Source of the DNA: Trichodelitschia bisporula
Lineage: Eukaryota; Ascomycota; Dothideomycetes; Phaeotrichales; Phaeotrichaceae
Direction: 5' to 3'
DNA length: 64,000 bases
Assembly (NCBI GenBank): GCA_010356995.1
Contig: ML996698.1
Span: 183,923-247,922, forward strand
Shown one piece after another: positions 37,516 to 59,829 of this stretch (its first letter is position 1; each line of letters opens with the position of its first letter). A program made the position numbers and the translations under genes. The notes under the pieces are model-generated. The model did no database searches and was not told where the DNA came from. It saw nothing but the letters and a program-made list of their open reading frames with translations.

Positions 37516-38907
37516 TCACCACTCCAGCCGCATCGGATCATACCCCCAGTCATCAATGCCCATGGGGTCATCGACCCAGACCGGCGCCGCCACCGAAGCA
37601 ACCGGCGCTCCTAACGCCCTGGGGGGAAGCGATGGAGGCTGCGCTCAGCGATGACGACGCGCTCGAGATGGAGGCCTATGAGTTGTTGGCACTGGAGGTG
37701 TGGAGGGAGGGGGTAAACTTACGCTCATACATGGCGCGCCGGAGCTGGGAGAGACCAACCCAGCAAATGGCGAGGGCGCAAGCGCGGCGGGAGCGGCAAG
37801 GGCACCAAACGGCGAGGGCGCGAGCGCGGCAGAGCCGGGAGAGACAGACCCAGTGAAGGGCGATAGCGCGAATCCGGCGGGACCGGCAGCGGTAGGCGCA
37901 GGGGCAGCGGCAGGCGCAGCAAATGGCGACGGCGCGATGGGACCAGCAGCGACAGACCCAGCAAACGGCGAGGGCGCAGGCACGGCGGCACCAGCGCCAG
38001 CGTCGACAGACGCAGCGAAGCGCGCGGGCCCGACTGGACCAACAGAGACACGAGGAGGGAAGGAGATTGGCGCGGACGGGGCGGCACCAGCAGACACATG
38101 CGCATCGGAGCGCACGGGCGCGCGCGCGACGAGACCGGCAGCGTTGGAGGCGGCAAAAGGCAGGGGCGCGCCGATGCTGGCCAGAACAGAGCCGATGAAG
38201 GTTGTGGCGGCGGGCGCGGCGGCACTGGCAGAGACAGACACGGTGGGAGCGGCGGAGACGGGCGCAGCGGAAGCCGATGGCGCGGACGTGGCGGGACAGG
38301 CAGAGATAGGCACGGCGGGAGCGGCGGAGGTAGGCGCAGTGGGATCGGCAGGACCAGGCGCAGTGGCAGGCGATGGCTCGCGCGCGGCGGCAGACGATGG
38401 CGCGGACGCGGCGACCCAAGCGGGAACACGCGCAGCGTAGCCCCAGGGCGCGGGCGCGGCGGCACCAACAGGAACACGCCTAGAGGTGCGGTAGCGCGCG
38501 CGCGAGGCGGCAGCAGCACGACCAAGGGCAGCGGAGCGGCGGACGGGCGCGGAACGCTCGGGAGAGGGCGAGGGCGAGGACCGCTTCGGCCCGCATGCGC
38601 GTTTGCGAGGCAGGGTGTTGGGGGAGGCGGGTGGCTGCTCGACGCTCAGGCTGGCCAACGTGTTGGTGATGTCTGTGAGGGCGGTGGCGGGTGGGGAGGC
38701 GCGGCGCTTCTTGGGAACACCAGGGGGGTCGGCGGACTGGCCGTTGTCATCGTTGTAGATGACGAGGCCCAGGTGCGCCGCGGACTTCTTGCCGCCTGGA
38801 TACCGGAGCTGGGGATGTTAGCGGAGTAAGGGTAGGGGAGTGGTGGTTTTACCGGAGCCCTGGAGATGTTAGCGAGGCTTGAGGTAGACTGAGGATTGGA
38901 CTTACAT
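37516..38907 (-). CDS. Ala/Pro/Ser-rich low-complexity protein (405 aa, 4 exons) with split start codon
   Basis: Preferred model: 38906-38907 (AT), 38853-38859 (7-nt microexon, supplies G and two codons), 37723-38808, 37516-37638. Introns are 46, 44 and 84 nt; the first two have near-identical 3' ends containing GCTAACATC and CCAG. The product starts MAPLRYPGGKKSAAHLG, passes a basic PKKRRASPP segment and ALTDITNTLASLS, then about 290 residues of degenerate Ala/Pro/Ser repeats (SPFAGSV, SPFA-type units), and ends DDPMGIDDWGYDPMRLEW after an intron that removes an in-frame TGA. The ordered ends contrast with the repeat core. The PKKRR segment could be a nuclear signal. Alternative: one 97-nt intron joined to an upstream exon starting at 39073 (MAESVHPL...), which reads through a pyrimidine tract. 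The family is unknown. The opposite strand is also widely open over the repeats. Confidence 0.6.
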
Positions 38908-49280: not shown

Positions 49281-50296
49281 CTATCGTCGCGCTGGCGCCC
49301 CTCCGACCGCACTGCTCGTCGCGCTTCCCCCCATCGAAGCCGTGGTACTCAGATTCCCCGCGGGCGCCGGAGCGGGCGGCGCCGCCATGGGCGCGGGCTC
49401 AGGCATAGCACCTGTATCGTCAGTCTCTCCTCTCCCAGCACTAACGGAAGGACATACCTAAGAACCCACCAAACGCACCCTGCCCTGCATTCCCCGGGAA
49501 GGCACCTGCACCGCAAAGACACATGCACGAGCACGCCTGACCATTGCCGGTAGACCCCTGGCCCGCAACGACAGAAGGCACAGCGCCGGCCGCCCCCGTC
49601 GCACCCGTCGCCGCTGCGTTCTGGTTCCCGACGTTGATGCTAATGGTGCTAGCGACCTGTGCGACTGCGGAGGGGGCCTGAATGGCGGCGAGGGCGAGGT
49701 TATTCCCACCGACTTTGATGGCGGCCTGCTTGAAGAGGTTGTGCGACTGGCCCTTGCCTTCGGCTGGCGGGTTGATCGTGAATACCATGCCCTTACCGCA
49801 GTGGGTGACTTGGAGGCAGGACATATCTGCTTTGTCAGCCCTTCGACCCTCTCATAGACCGAGACACAACGGGAATCCTACATAGCGGCCCAGCATCCTT
49901 AACGGTGAAGTCCTTGGTTGGTCCAGGGATGGTATTCGCCTCGTTCGCGATAAACCCGCTATTGAACCCGCCTTGCGCGGGCGTGCACGGGCTATCGAAG
50001 CTCGTCTGCACGACGCTGTGGTTGTTGGCCAGGAACTCGAAGCGGATCGTTTGGCCCGGCTGTGCAGTCACGCTTTCGGGGAAGAACTGGAAAGACGGGA
50101 CGGGCTTGCCGGTTGCGCCGGCTGCTTGTGGTCCGCCGGGTAATCCGCCCACGGTCACGGTGAGTGTTTTTGAGGCGTCTGGAGCGGCGGCTTTGGCGGC
50201 CATAACAATCGCTTTCGCAACGACGGGGGCGGGGTGCGTTGCAGCGGCGAGGCCGGCGATTTCGAGCAGATATATAGCGCGCATGGTGAAGCGCAT
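49281..50296 (-). CDS. Extracellular cupredoxin-fold protein (304 aa, 3 exons)
   Basis: Exons 49882-50296, 49458-49826, 49281-49411; introns 55 and 46 nt. Signal peptide near residues 1-25 (MRFTMRAIYLLEIAGLAAAT); a second ATG at codon 5 could also start it. The domain has VGG...FQFFPESVTAQPGQTIRFEF (19 of these shown in two parts: FQFFPESVTA, QPGQTIRFEF), the first copper ligand His in NNHSVVQ, and the C...H...M cluster SCLQVTHCGKGM, so a type-1 copper site H/C/H/M appears complete. The tail is Ala/Gly/Gln-rich with a Cys cluster (CSCMCLC) and ends APARR with no GPI tail. Fungal members are called 'extracellular serine-rich proteins'; they are abundant at the hyphal surface, with no firm biochemical role. 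Confidence 0.87.
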
Positions 50297-50941
50297 TGTA
50301 ATTACAGCCCGCGCAGCGGGGATAAATGAACGAAAGAAAGAAAAAGAGACCTGCTCACGTCACGTTCACGAAGGGAATGGAGTGCTAAGGCTTGGAGGGT
50401 GGGCGGGGGGGTCGCATCGCTTTTGTGGGCGCGATGGGGAGCATCTGAGGCCGTGTGGCGCGGGCGAAACGTGGGCTTCGTTCGGGAGGGGGATTTCCGC
50501 GCGGGTTGGGGGTCATGATGTTTATTGCGGTGGGTGATGGGGGCGGGAATTGGGGCCTCGAGCGTGCGGCGTGTGGAAGGCGTCTCATATCGTTCCAGGT
50601 GTGTTGCAGGCTGGGTCACGTGACCATGATAGGGGAGGTTTTTTGCTGGGACTTTTGCTGCTGCGGCGGGGAGGATTGAAGTCACGAGTAGCTGGGACGC
50701 GGGGGTTCAAGATTATGAGGGCCGTGGAGTGTTTGGTGTTTGCTGCTGCTGCGATCGGGGTCGCGATGCTTGGCTGGTGAAACGGAACGGGCAACGGCTC
50801 GTCAGCTATGGCTTGATTGACAGATGACAATGCTCACATTATCTCGGCCGTAGAAGCTTGTTTAGCCCCAAATCGGTGCTGATGCCCTCAGACTCTCATC
50901 TTAAGTCTGTGCCCGTCGATAAAAAATTCTCCTTTGCATCA
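50297..50941. other. Intergenic
   Basis: 645 bases holding the cupredoxin gene promoter and the 3' flank of SMN. Nothing else recognised. Confidence 0.5.
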
Positions 50942-51896
50942 TCACTTCTTCCCTTGCTGCTGCCCGGCGTAGAGCCCCGAGTAGTACCCAGCGTGGTACC
51001 ACGCCATCATGAGGCCCTTCTGAGCTGGATCTTGCACTGCTTTAATCAGCGAATCTTCCTAATCAAACAAGGCATTGAAAACTCACCAGTCCCAAGTAGC
51101 TCCTGCGGAATCTCGGCCCCGCCCAGCTGACTTTGCGGCCGCGGCTCCGTGGTCGCCGATGATTGTTGCTGCCCATCGTGGAGCCCCGAGTAGTACCCAG
51201 CGTAGTACCATGACATAACAAGGTTCTTCAGCGTGGGGTCTTGCACTGCGCCCATCAGCGGATCTCCTAGATTAAATGGGCATCGGAAACTTACCCGCCT
51301 GTGGAATTCCAGCCCCGCCCGACTGGTTCTGCGGCTGCGGCTCTGTCGCTGATGGCTGCTGCTGTGTCATCGTGGACTGCGCGGTCTGAGGGAGATCGGG
51401 CCCTATGGCTGGCTGCGGGAGGTCGTCATCGGAGTCACCATCGAGCGCCATGGCCTCAGATGCGCCGTCATCGAGCTCGCCTTCTTCGGCCTCCTCTAAG
51501 GAAGACTCGAAATTGCCCTCCGTCGATGCATCAGGTTCGCGTCCGTTGGTGCTGCGGCCGCCGGTGCGGACAAACTCTCGCTGCCTGAACTGGTCAGCGA
51601 TATCTCACGCATGCAAAGACGAGATATTCGGACAATATAAAAAAAAGGATATAATGGCGCCCTGCTTACGCTTGTAACTGCTCAAGCTCCTCGGCGGTCA
51701 AAACATCTTCTAGGCTCTGACCTTTGGCGTGGATGCTATGGTATTTCTATCAGAGTCAGCATCCGTGATATATCGATATAAGGATGTAAGGGTACAAGCG
51801 CCATACCTTGTACTCAGCTAGCGCTGAATCCCACGACTCGATGAGCGCTGAGTCGTCCCAAGCACGCCGATCACCCATATCTATGGAGAAAGCCAT
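50942..51896 (-). CDS. smn1: Survival motor neuron protein SMN with duplicated YG box (236 aa, 5 exons)
   Basis: Exons 51807-51896, 51670-51746, 51295-51584, 51087-51245, 50942-51036; introns 60, 85, 49 and 50 nt. SMN is the core of the complex that loads Sm proteins onto snRNAs. Residues 11-39 (AWDDSALIESWDSALAEYKK, then YHSIHAKG) match the Gemin2-binding helix of fission-yeast SMN. A disordered acidic linker follows, with no Tudor domain, as in other fungal SMNs. The C-terminal YG box, a glycine-zipper helix for self-association, appears twice: NLVMSWYYAGYYSGLHDG (160-177) and GLMMAWYHAGYYSGLYAG (213-230). The two blocks of 28 residues agree at 20 positions by my count. Each is preceded by a TEPxPQxQ-like segment and a phase-1 intron in the same place. 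Fission-yeast SMN has one YG box and 152 residues. SMN is divergent from NOP15. Confidence 0.93.
50955..51360. repeat. 209-bp tandem duplication inside SMN
   Basis: 'gagccccgagtagtacccag' occurs at 50972 and again at 51181, 209 bases apart. The flanking Gln/Pro-rich coding sequence and an intron of 49-50 nt with CGCTGAT branch sites are also duplicated. 209 is not a multiple of three, but the intron lengths (49 and 50) and coding sizes keep the spliced frame. Confidence 0.85.
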
Positions 51897-52204
51897 ATTG
51901 AGTGAGAAGTTGTCAAGTAGAGAATTCGAACCCGAGAAGTTGTGCAGTTGAGAACTTGTGAAGTTGAAATAAACACAAGCTCGCGGCCTAAGAAATAGCG
52001 ATGCGCCCGACACCACAAGCAGGAGTCGCGCTAGTGGAGTAAACTCTTGGCCGCAGCCGGGTGACGGCAAAACCACGGGACGCCCGTGACGCCCAGCCAC
52101 GCCAGCCTTCGGCCAGGGTCCGGCAAAAAAAGTTCGAAGTTCGAACCACAAGTCGCGATTTCACCACCCAACACCCCAACCCCACATCTCCACCGCACGC
52201 AACC
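51897..52204. promoter_or_regulatory. 308-bp bidirectional promoter of SMN and NOP15
   Basis: The ATGs of SMN (minus, 51896) and NOP15 (plus, 52205) are only 308 bases apart, so both leaders and core promoters must fit here. No TATA box is obvious. The SMN side has repeated 'gagaagttgt/gaagttga' blocks (51905-51970) and the NOP15 side has an overlapping 'gttcgaa' pair (about 52132-52145), which could be shared factor sites. Confidence 0.7.
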
Positions 52205-53946
52205 ATGGCTGCGGATTTAAAGAAAAATAAGCGCAAAGGTATGTAGTCTTGAAATTGTGTATATCGAAGCTAATCGTGTCTAGGCGCAGACAAATCTGCC
52301 CCGGCGGCGAAGAAGCTCAAGCCCGCGCCCCAGGCTGAGCTGAAGAAAGATGCGAAGCCCGTGAAGCCCGTTCCTGCGTCCGAAGCGAAGTCCCCGGCTA
52401 AGTCACCTGCCGCTAAGGCTGCGAAGTCAGAGAAGGCTCTGAAGGATACTGGTGCGGTGTCGCCGGCTTCCAAGGCGGGACGCAAGCGTGCTGCGGACTT
52501 TTTCGAGGCTGATGGGACGCCTGTTGAGAAGGCCCCGCCGGCTAAGGTCAAGAAGGTGGTCAAGGGTGATAAGCAGGTTGGAAATATAGTCGAGCAAGTG
52601 CAGAAGGTCAAGGAAGGACTCAAGAAGGCTCAGGCTGCCGAGAAGGAGATGGAGCAGGCGCTCAAGAAGGTTGAGGAGTTCAAAAAGGCTGACGCCACGG
52701 AGAAGACTGGCAAGAAGGCTAAGAAGGCTGGGAAGCAGGCTCAACCGGAGCCTGAGCTCGCTACGGAGGTCGAGCAGGAAGCCACAGAGGCGGACAAGCC
52801 CAAGGAGTCTAAGAAGAGCAAAAAGAACAAGAAGGCTAGCAAGGCCGAGCCGGAGTCTGTACAGGAGGAGTCAACCAAGGCCACAGCCGACGAGGAGCCC
52901 ATGCCGACATCCATCTCCCGCCCCAAGAAGTCGAAGAAGTCGAAACAGTCGGAGTCTAAGCCAGCACCGGAACCCGCGAACGATGACTTCGCTGGCTTCG
53001 AAAGCGAAGATGATGGCAGTGAAGACGAGGGCAACGACGCTGCGGACCACACTGCCGCGCTGTTGGCTGGCTTTGAGAGCGAGGATGAAGAGTCAGGCGC
53101 AGAGACTGGTATGGATGTCGAGAAGCTGCCCGCTGCGCCGATCAGCGCGAAGGCTCGCAAGCAGCTGAGTAAGGCAAACAGCGCAGACAAGCCGGGCACC
53201 ATCTACGTCGGGTATATTCTTTCCCCTCCCCCCAAACTCCTCCTGCTAATCCCCACAGCCGCATCCCCCACGGCTTTTACGAGCCGCAGATGCAAGCCTA
53301 CTTCTCACAGTTTGGCAACGTGACACGGCTCCGCCTGTCTCGTAACAAACTCACCGGTCGCAGCAAGCACTACGCGTTCATCGAGTTCGATTCTGCGGCC
53401 GTCGCCGACGTTGTCGTCAAGACCATGGACAACTACCTGCTCTACCAACATATCCTGAAGGTGCGCCGTGTGCCCGACGACCAGGTACACCCAGACCTGT
53501 GGAAGGGCGCCAACCACCGCTTCAAGGCCATCCCGCGTGCGCGCATCGAGGCCCGCCGCCTCGAGCGCCCGGCTGACCGCGAGGTCTGGGAGAAGCGCGT
53601 CGACCGTGAGGTCAAGCGGCGCCGTGCCCGGGAGCAGAAACTCAAGGCCAGTGGGCTTGATTACACATTTGAGGCGCCACGGGTTAAGCTTGTGGCGGAT
53701 GTCGCGCGCAAGGAACCTGCTGCGGTTGCCGAGACGGAGCCCGAGAGCCCTGCTGATGCCCCCGAGGTCAAGATGCTGGATGCACCGAAAGAGGTGCAGA
53801 CGGTTGAGGCCCTGTTGACGAAGGCTAAGGGTCTGGTTGAGGTTGGCGATGGCGTTGACGAGGTGGAGATGAAGGTCACGGTCAAGAGCAAGAAGGAAAA
53901 GAAGGAGAAGCCCAAGGCAAAATACTTCAAGAAGCCGAAGGCTTGA
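52205..53946 (+). CDS. NOP15: Ribosome biogenesis RRM protein Nop15 (549 aa, 3 exons)
   Basis: Exons 52205-52238, 52284-53211, 53259-53946; introns 45 and 47 nt. The first ~310 residues are Lys/Ala/Glu-rich and disordered, with acidic blocks twice containing AGFESEDxxS. The RRM (about 316-392) has RNP2 GTIYVGRIPHG, formed across the second intron, and RNP1 RSKHYAFIEFD; the linker NKLTGRSKHYAF is characteristic of Nop15/NIFK. After the RRM, the KVRRVPDDQVHPDLWKGANH block and a basic helix (RRLERPADREVWEKRVDREV) follow. Nop15 binds ITS2 of pre-60S particles in the nucleolus. Budding-yeast Nop15 is about 220 residues; a long charged N-terminus is usual in Pezizomycotina. The name could also be given as NIFK-like. 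Confidence 0.9.
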
Positions 53947-57636: not shown

Positions 57637-59829
57637 TTAGATTATTTTGATGGTCGAATACTCTCTCGGAAAGTTACAGTCCGGTATCATATCATCCGAG
57701 GAGGGGATATTTACTTCAGAACTGAAGGCACAGAAAACTCCCACTCGCGTGAAGGTGGCTTTGGCAGATGCGGGCTCCAGAATGAGGTAGTAGCATTTCC
57801 TAGTGGCACGCTCGCCCGGCTCAGCCGCGGCGCAGCCTTGAGCCATGAGCAATATGGCGTCAATGGTGGATTCCCGCCATTTAAATGGAATAATGTCAGG
57901 ATAAAGCCCCCATCCATTAAGACTGGAATAGGGAACTTTGCGCATCGGCCCCCGAAGTACCATGTACCCGTTGGCATCTGCGACTTGCCCGTTGCTTTTC
58001 TGATGTACGTTGACTTCCAGCACCTCGGTATACCAAGTCTCTAAGTTGACGTGTGCCTGACGGTGGTAAACATGCCGAACAAAGCCGCGCTGAGTTGGCA
58101 TCCATGGATCAAGACTAACTGACGCCCAGGACCATGAGGGTGCGACATCGACTTGACGGATTGTGCGGAATCCCCTCGGCTGTTCGTGACTGTCCACGCA
58201 CCAAAGAAGGTCAGATGGAAAGAGCCTCCCGTCCAGCATGCCAGCTACGGCTTTTAGACCGCTGACTTCGACGATAGCCCCTATTGCAACCAGTCTGTCG
58301 GTTGGTTCGGTCAGTCGCAGTTCAGAGTATCTAGCCCGTAGCAGCCGCCACTCACTCAGGACTGTGAACTCCTCATCCAGCAATTGGGAATGCTGAGGGG
58401 TTTTCAGGTTAGCCATTTCGGAAACGTGTCCGGTTAAGTTTCGCAACTTTAACTTCGATTGTTGAAACCGCAGTCCAGCACAAAACTCGTTCTCGTTCGC
58501 GCGATTACAGCTCCAAGAAACATGGTCCAAGCCAAAGGAAAGGGACCGTGATGCAAGCAGCCTTTCCTGGAGAACCCATCCACGGGTATCGAGTGGATTA
58601 CAATCGTCGGATAGAGAATAGCAGGCCGCAATAACCCGGTCTTCACCGAGCCTGTTCTTGTATAAGCACCGGTAAAGCGGCAAGGGGTTCCTTTGGACAA
58701 ATAATCCCATCGTTGGATTTCGACCCCACGCCGCGGCGATATTGAGGACGGCATTGGAGTACACACTGGCCATTACCGCGGATTCTGTTATCCAGTCTGC
58801 GTCCGGCACCTGTCCCTTGTTGGCTTGGATAATGCAAAGGGAGTCGATCCAAAGATAACGATACCCGAGCTGGCGCGTAACAGTGAAAGCATCGGCGAAA
58901 GTAGCTGGAAGCCGATCTTCGGGAATCTTGTTGAGAAACTCATCCAAATTCTGCCGCGTAAGACTGAGAAACTCTGCACCTCCCCAGCAGTGGCTCAGTG
59001 TGAAGTACGGTGGTAACGGATCCATGTTTTCTGTTTTGCACAACCGAGCCGAACCTGGCCGAATGCCAACATCCAACAAGCGCGTCGGCCGGCCGTTGGG
59101 TTTCAACAATGGATTTCGGCATTCAGGATGATCAGAAGAGCAGGTGTGAAGCCAGCGCTTCATTTTGTCTAAGCATGCACGAGACCCAGTCCAGATGGGA
59201 AGGATATCGTCACTGTAGACGTTCTCTCCAGGCTTGAAGTTGATAAATTTTTGAGAGCTTAAATGGCGGCCCTGTGCGTTTGGCATTTCCAACGTCGACT
59301 TTTCGCAGTCCTCAGCACTGTCAAGACCGCATGATACATGGGTCGAGGGAACGATGAACCTCATATTGAAACATGATGGGCTGCTCGGACTTGTCACATA
59401 AATACTGTTATCGCGTTGCTCGCAAAATCTTTCAGTCGACGATCGGGTTTGACTGCAAGAGGTTCCAGGGGTTCCCGACATGCACGGGAAGTTTGATAAC
59501 TCGAATGATCCGAGCTCCTTGAGCAATGTGTAGTACCGTATTGAACAGAGGTGACAGCCCGCGTTGGCCGAGAGCGCTACCTCGCGCAGACATTTGTGCC
59601 GAAGACCCTCATAGGTTGCCTCCAGCCCACTATCGGAGGCGAATGGGTTCAGAAGTCTGGAAAAATCGGAGGCTGATAGGTTCAGAAGTTTGGAACCTTT
59701 AAGGGTGGCCCGACACTCGTCACAGAGCTGGTTCGGCGTCACACAAGCCTCGCCGTCCTGCCCAAAAATTCCACGGGATGGATCAGGAAGCGCCTTGGCC
59801 AGGCTCAGGGGAGGTTGATAGTCCGACAT
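57637..59829 (-). CDS. HET-domain protein (730 aa, single exon)
   Basis: ATG at 59829, no intron needed. Residues about 275-430 form the HET (heterokaryon incompatibility) domain: PYFTLSHCWGG, then LPATFADAFTVTRQLGYRYL and WIDSLCIIQ, DWITESAVMASVYSNAVLNI. Two CxxC pairs in the N-terminal part (LCDEC 36-39, GCHLC 92-95) could bind zinc. The C-terminal ~300 residues carry the usual WVLQERLLASR block (DTRGWVLQERLL) and a WSWAS signature typical of HET proteins. HET-domain proteins trigger cell death on non-self fusion; TIR-like NADase activity has been shown for some. No sensor domain (WD40, NACHT, ankyrin) is fused here. It lies in a locus that also has relics, as is common for incompatibility genes. 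Confidence 0.93.
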   Translation of the reverse strand: MSDYQPPLSLAKALPDPSRGIFGQDGEACVTPNQLCDECRATLKGSKLLNLSASDFSRLLNPFASDSGLEATYEGLRHKCLREVALSANAGCHLCSIRYYTLLKELGSFELSNFPCMSGTPGTSCSQTRSSTERFCEQRDNSIYVTSPSSPSCFNMRFIVPSTHVSCGLDSAEDCEKSTLEMPNAQGRHLSSQKFINFKPGENVYSDDILPIWTGSRACLDKMKRWLHTCSSDHPECRNPLLKPNGRPTRLLDVGIRPGSARLCKTENMDPLPPYFTLSHCWGGAEFLSLTRQNLDEFLNKIPEDRLPATFADAFTVTRQLGYRYLWIDSLCIIQANKGQVPDADWITESAVMASVYSNAVLNIAAAWGRNPTMGLFVQRNPLPLYRCLYKNRLGEDRVIAACYSLSDDCNPLDTRGWVLQERLLASRSLSFGLDHVSWSCNRANENEFCAGLRFQQSKLKLRNLTGHVSEMANLKTPQHSQLLDEEFTVLSEWRLLRARYSELRLTEPTDRLVAIGAIVEVSGLKAVAGMLDGRLFPSDLLWCVDSHEQPRGFRTIRQVDVAPSWSWASVSLDPWMPTQRGFVRHVYHRQAHVNLETWYTEVLEVNVHQKSNGQVADANGYMVLRGPMRKVPYSSLNGWGLYPDIIPFKWRESTIDAILLMAQGCAAAEPGERATRKCYYLILEPASAKATFTRVGVFCAFSSEVNIPSSDDMIPDCNFPREYSTIKII

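Follow-up and report, generated by a model that had tools for sequence, protein, structure and literature searches.

The window analysed here, a 64,000-nt stretch of contig ML996698.1 of Trichodelitschia bisporula, contains a five-exon gene that runs on the minus strand from 51896 to 50942. The gene model was built from splice signals and gives a coding sequence of 711 nt, i.e., 236 amino acids and a stop codon. By both of its domains, a Gemin2-binding helix and a YG box, the gene is SMN, of the spinal-muscular-atrophy gene family and of the S. pombe Smn1 type. The exons (51807-51896, 51670-51746, 51295-51584, 51087-51245 and 50942-51036 in order of transcription) are 90, 77, 290, 159 and 95 nt long and are separated by introns of 60, 85, 49 and 50 nt. 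Exon 1 starts with the ATG at 51896 and, according to the PF20636 and 7bb3 alignments, encodes the greater part of the Gemin2-binding helix (residues 8-30), while the end of the Gemin2-binding region (YHSIHAKG) was placed in exon 2 by the Pfam and PDB alignments. Intron 1 (51747-51806) extends from GT to TAG with a branch-like TGCTGAC, and a branch-like CGCTGAC is present in intron 2 (51585-51669). Directly upstream of the start codon, three imperfect copies of a 21-nt repeat of the GAGAAGTTGT type occupy 51904-51970, presumably in the 5' UTR or promoter.

The remaining exons hold a tandem arrangement of linkers and YG boxes, all on the minus strand. Exon 3 encodes an acidic, Pro/Gln-rich middle region, which from its composition would be disordered, followed by Q-tract 1 (CAGCAGCAG, 51356-51364) and the first copy of a linker (TEPQPQNQSGGAGIPQ, 51299-51346). 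After intron 3 (51246-51294), exon 4 encodes YG box 1 (VQDPTLKNLVMSWYYAGYYSGLHDGQQQ, 51163-51245; residues 153-180, with the first base of codon 153 at 51295), which ends in Q-tract 2 (CAGCAACAA, 51163-51171), and then the second linker copy (TEPRPQSQLGGAEIPQ, 51103-51150). Intron 4 (51037-51086) is followed by YG box 2 (VQDPAQKGLMMAWYHAGYYSGLYAGQQQ, 50954-51036; residues 206-233, with the first base of codon 206 at 51087), which ends in Q-tract 3 (CAGCAGCAA, 50954-50962), and by the stop codon in exon 5. Judging from the splice sites, exons 4 and 5 would both be spliced in together. An earlier reading of these letters without database searches (the sequence-only reading) had described introns 3 and 4 as phase-1 introns of 49 and 50 nt with a CGCTGAT branch and had counted 159 nt, a multiple of three, in exon 4; the gene model agrees on each point, and CGCTGAT precedes a CAG acceptor in both introns.

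In the Pfam search of the spliced protein, SMN_G2-BD (PF20636) was matched at residues 8-33 (E = 1.8e-6, above the cut-off) and SMN_YG-box (PF20635) was matched in two stretches (E = 6.5e-8 for the whole protein, over the cut-off), which bears out the claim of the sequence-only reading that this SMN has two complete YG boxes. Taken alone, box 2 passed the PF20635 cut-off of 21.3 bits with a score of 23.0 bits, and box 1, submitted with 11 flanking residues, fell just under it (19.3 bits, E = 9.9e-4). The PDB search returned four distinct sequences at E values up to 1, namely the SMN of S. pombe in 7bb3 (E = 1.3e-13, covering both domains) and 4rg5 (E = 8.6e-5) and two human SMN peptides (E = 0.14 and 0.2). 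Residues 3-37 of 7bb3 aligned with the Gemin2-binding N-terminus; the YG stretch shown in both S. pombe matches was box 1, with box 2 having no stretch of its own. No family of Tudor domains was matched in the SMN protein by Pfam at E values up to 1. A profile search of the genome with Tudor PF06003 also gave no match and was uninformative, since it was equally silent in all 14 controls.

This gene was the sole SMN locus found in the assembly, which comprises 25,654,952 bases (25.65 Mb) in 30 contigs and in which only the best candidates of each genome search were scored. Five of the six matches of the SMN protein were pieces of the gene itself, and the sixth was weak (contig C5, E = 0.22). 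Similarly, two of the four matches of the YG-box model were the boxes described above and the other two were weak (contig C1, E = 0.068; contig C14, E = 1.5). A second SMN gene was thus not found by the protein and YG-box searches, and the DNA search with the 408-nt duplicated region matched only the region itself. A relative of Gemin2 (PF04938) was found at C17:34866-35468 (E = 2.3e-20, over the cut-off). The Gemin8 model gave one weak match under the cut-off (C3:1762383-1762673, E = 0.495), located in a frame that by eye resembles a CCCH zinc-finger protein, and the Gemin7 model gave no match in the assembly. Both models were also silent in the 14 controls, and therefore the absence of Gemin7 and Gemin8 is not established. 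In a search for 5.8S rRNA, none was found among the 39 scored of 806 first-look candidates, and the rDNA was possibly missing from the assembly, masked or missed.

Several other putative genes and open frames were observed in the window. A putative Lys/Ala-rich gene, noted by eye, starts at 52205 on the plus strand, divergent from SMN and about 300 bases away; for the frame 52361-53323 (plus strand) in its region, no Pfam match was obtained at E values up to 0.001. Just downstream of SMN, a possible small secreted cupredoxin-like protein was noted by eye at 49800-50300 (minus strand). A HET (heterokaryon incompatibility) domain (E = 5.9e-25) is present in a 730-aa open frame at 57637-59829 (minus strand), which would be in keeping with a filamentous ascomycete, and two long low-complexity open frames, one Ala/Pro-rich and one Leu/Pro-rich, overlap on the same strand at 37645-38658 and 37725-38525 (minus strand).

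The two units of the SMN gene, each consisting of a linker, a phase-1 intron and a YG box, agree at 146 of the 195 positions aligned without gaps. The similarity extends through the introns, with 37 of 48 aligned positions identical between introns 3 and 4 and an inner alignment score of 28, compared with a maximum of 15 in 2,000 shuffles; chance similarity of the units was rejected on these grounds. The sequence-only reading had proposed a 209-bp intragenic duplication. The intragenic tandem copy, including its intron, was confirmed. Its size depends on the copy, as unit 1 measures 193 nt and unit 2 measures 209 nt from Q-tract to Q-tract. The difference of 16 nt comprises two in-frame stretches, one of 12 nt (ELLG) and one of 3 nt by the Q-tract, and 1 nt in the intron. 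The boxes are spaced 209 nt apart and the linkers 196 nt apart, mainly because of the 12-nt in-frame insert in copy 2.

The copied unit is bounded by Gln tracts of CAG and CAA codons that start at 51364, 51171 and 50962, of which the first marks the upstream edge of unit 1 and the last the downstream edge of unit 2. The middle tract is a chimera of the other two: the GGG before it also precedes tract 3, and the linker start YCATCRGCGAC after it also follows tract 1. Because it shares its left side with tract 3 and its right side with tract 1, it reads as a recombinant junction. We infer from this sequence arrangement that the copy arose when the Gln-coding tract preceding the Pro/Gln linker and the one following the YG box recombined by unequal crossover. 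A crossover between Gln tracts would be a plausible route to a tandem oligomerisation domain. With a view to dating the duplication, the viral_contigs set was scanned, and its 29 pattern matches included no relative.

The divergence of the copies was estimated on 44 aligned codons (16 of the linker and 28 of the box), excluding the first Q-tract and the indel codons and including the QQQ that ends the box. Synonymous and nonsynonymous changes numbered 14 each, over 29.3 and 102.7 sites respectively, giving dS of 0.76, dN of 0.15 and dN/dS of 0.20 (bootstrap 0.07-0.46; 1 of 2,000 replicates at or above 1), a ratio that could have been lowered by gene conversion. By reasoning rather than computation, a ratio of about 0.5 is expected if one copy was frozen and the other neutral. 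As this value lies just above the bootstrap interval, constraint on both copies is favoured, although not beyond doubt. Survival of a neutrally evolving exon 4 was simulated with 20,000 runs per setting, survival meaning that the frame stayed open, that the splice dinucleotides were intact and that nine motif positions were conserved, with small residues counted as interchangeable. The exon survived in 2.0% of runs at 0.15 substitutions per site, which is the share of one copy if the divergence is split equally, in 0.09% at 0.30, and in none of the 20,000 runs at either 0.5 or 0.76. Both copies, then, look old and constrained. A run of seven codons (AGYYSGL, within 51163-51245 and 50954-51036) is identical in DNA between the boxes, with no synonymous change, which could possibly be caused by codon bias, chance or gene conversion.

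In agreement with the sequence-only reading, the boxes are identical at 20 of 28 residues, and its suggestion that both are under constraint gains support from the dN/dS ratio. The six positions of the Y/G dimer motif do not differ between the boxes. The eight differing positions are 259, 260, 262, 264, 266, 269, 277 and 278 in human numbering. They touch none of the six dimer positions, five of the 11 positions (260, 266, 269, 277 and 278) on a list for higher-order assembly drawn from the consulted part of PMC8287954, and three of the 11 others; for dimer positions against the rest, this is a non-significant trend (Fisher p = 0.14). Around hsY277, box 2 reads LYAGQ and box 1 reads LHDGQ. Box 2 retains the fungal-consensus Tyr at hsY277 and is off consensus at the Glu, and box 1 has His in place of the Tyr and Asp in place of the Glu. 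In the same part of PMC8287954, Tyr at hsY277 is described as favouring higher-order assembly and substitutions around the hsY277 region as being allowed in fungi, so the His of box 1 may be harmless. The small-residue face is S-A-S in box 1 and A-A-S in box 2, and the natural Ala found at small-residue positions in S. pombe and Drosophila is regarded as compatible with stacking (PMC8287938, in the part used here).

These observations could be explained as follows. The mature SMN protein would carry both YG boxes, and within a single chain these two boxes would pair in parallel to form an intramolecular glycine zipper. A parallel zipper within the chain is feasible because the boxes share all six residues of the Y/G dimer motif. 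The boxes are separated by about 27 residues, probably a flexible linker, and the local concentration of the partner helix was estimated at 1.6-4.5 mM with a generic formula for disordered chains, taking the gap to be 30-40 A. A single-chain dimer of this kind might stay paired at concentrations where separate chains dissociate, and the pre-formed zipper units could stack via the small-residue face into a larger SMN core. Box 2, with Tyr at hsY277, may favour higher-order stacking, and the main role of box 1, with His, may be that of zipper partner. Each Gemin2-binding arm in the core would then correspond to two YG helices and not to one. We give an even chance to the account as a whole, i.e., crossover between Q-tracts, a two-box protein and a single-chain YG zipper stacking into the core; the score of box 1 alone (19.3 against the Pfam cut-off of 21.3 bits) is a point against it. 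The same zipper chemistry permits pairing between chains. A stricter form, in which SMN self-association has shifted into the single chain through an obligate zipper and labour is divided at hsY277, box 1 (His) serving the zipper only and box 2 (Tyr) driving assembly, seems doubtful, if conceivable. Under that form, the zippered unit would be present whatever the amount of protein, and the core would have its Gemin2-to-YG ratio cut by half.

The retention of the Y/G and small-residue positions in both boxes would equally suit their use between chains. SMN would then be divalent for the zipper, and longer polymers or denser condensates than those of one-box SMN could be formed; the endless stacking of YG dimers in the S. 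pombe crystal, as reported in the consulted part of PMC8287938, fits with this. However, the tether of about 27 residues and the local concentration estimated from it favour within-chain pairing at ordinary protein levels, and linking between chains, the main alternative, is considered rather unlikely. A single working box accompanied by a tolerated spare, with no special assembly, would be in line with the score of box 1 just under the Pfam cut-off and with the tolerance of S. pombe for the YG-box changes A141Q, A145Q and G143V, although most of the tested changes failed (PMC8287954, in part). Such redundancy is improbable in view of the high dS (0.76) combined with a low dN, exon indels of lengths divisible by three, unbroken splice sites and the rare survival of a neutral copy in the simulations at 0.15 and 0.30 substitutions per site. 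An assembly or annotation artefact was also considered, and nothing in the one assembly examined spoke for it. With 49 of 195 aligned positions, a quarter of the total, differing between the copies, collapse or expansion of a repeat is very unlikely, and the frames, splice sites and motifs are intact; this explanation was rejected as extremely improbable.

It is also possible that the duplication mainly serves alternative splicing, with one-box isoforms of different oligomer grades. According to the sequence-only reading, skipping of either exon would restore a one-box SMN. This holds for exon 4, the skipping of which is predicted to leave box 2 only; exon 5 is terminal, so the skipping route works for exon 4 only, and a protein with box 1 only would need retention of intron 4. 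Retention of that intron is predicted to give box 1 and linker 2 followed by 13 residues (GEFSMPCLIRKIR) and a stop, and retention of intron 3 is predicted to give no box. The 159-nt length of exon 4 with its matching phase-1 junctions, the predicted termination after box 1 and the predominance of intron retention in Trichoderma longibrachiatum (9,369 of 10,034 alternative-splicing events; PMC4324775, in the part used here) are consistent with such a role. Introns 3 and 4 as a whole are more alike (37/48) than the synonymous sites (15/29 unchanged; p = 0.026), but the difference is not significant when the splice signals are excluded (22/32 vs 15/29; p = 0.20), and intron conservation was rejected as a sign of regulated splicing. 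Moreover, introns of 49-50 nt with GTAAGT and GTGAGT donors look constitutive in our judgement. A main role in alternative splicing is accordingly regarded as quite unlikely, and the single-chain zipper described above is the preferred reading.

The departure of this gene from known SMN is the presence of two YG boxes. To our knowledge, one YG box is usual in SMN. The consulted parts of PMC8287954 and PMC8287938 likewise present a single YG box as usual; this architecture, usual but not defining for SMN, is not found here, with two boxes in one gene model. No two-box SMN was among the matches listed in the open-licence literature (titles and abstract openings), and it is quite possible that two-box SMN is wider in fungi or was already noted there. 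Self-association through the YG boxes is predicted for the present protein. Two covalently tied boxes are a natural test of why SMN must multimerise, and as all eight changes between the boxes lie outside the six Y/G dimer positions, dimerisation could be separated from higher-order assembly in one molecule. The tied boxes could also constrain the possible stacking geometries. In the parts of the two 2021 papers used here, parallel stacking of YG dimers is favoured by PMC8287954 and antiparallel stacking is reported by PMC8287938, and the required size of the SMN oligomer is also treated differently.

Among the known systems, Smn1 of S. pombe (7bb3, 4rg5; PMC8287938 and PMC8287954, both in part) resembles the present protein in its Gemin2-binding N-terminus, flexible middle region, lack of a Tudor domain and C-terminal YG box. 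The absence of the Tudor domain is described for fungal SMN in the consulted part of PMC8287954. Of 24 core YG residues of Smn1, 15 are shared with box 1 and 12 with box 2. Unlike the present protein, Smn1 has one YG box, and Ala (spA141) is found at hsY277, where box 2 has Tyr and box 1 has His. Human and Drosophila SMN share the YG zipper and the small-residue motif. Relative to human SMN, hsY276 is the one Y/G dimer position that differs: both boxes have Leu there, as do S. pombe (L140) and Drosophila (L207). In contrast, metazoan SMN combines a Tudor domain with a single YG box, and its higher-order oligomers are formed between separate chains. The predicted splice variants recall SMN-delta-7, the product of exon-7 skipping in human SMN2. 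In that case too, splicing truncates the YG box and self-association is altered (PMC8287954, in part). Unlike in SMN-delta-7, however, retention of intron 4 here would keep one full YG box, and only retention of intron 3 would leave the protein without a box.
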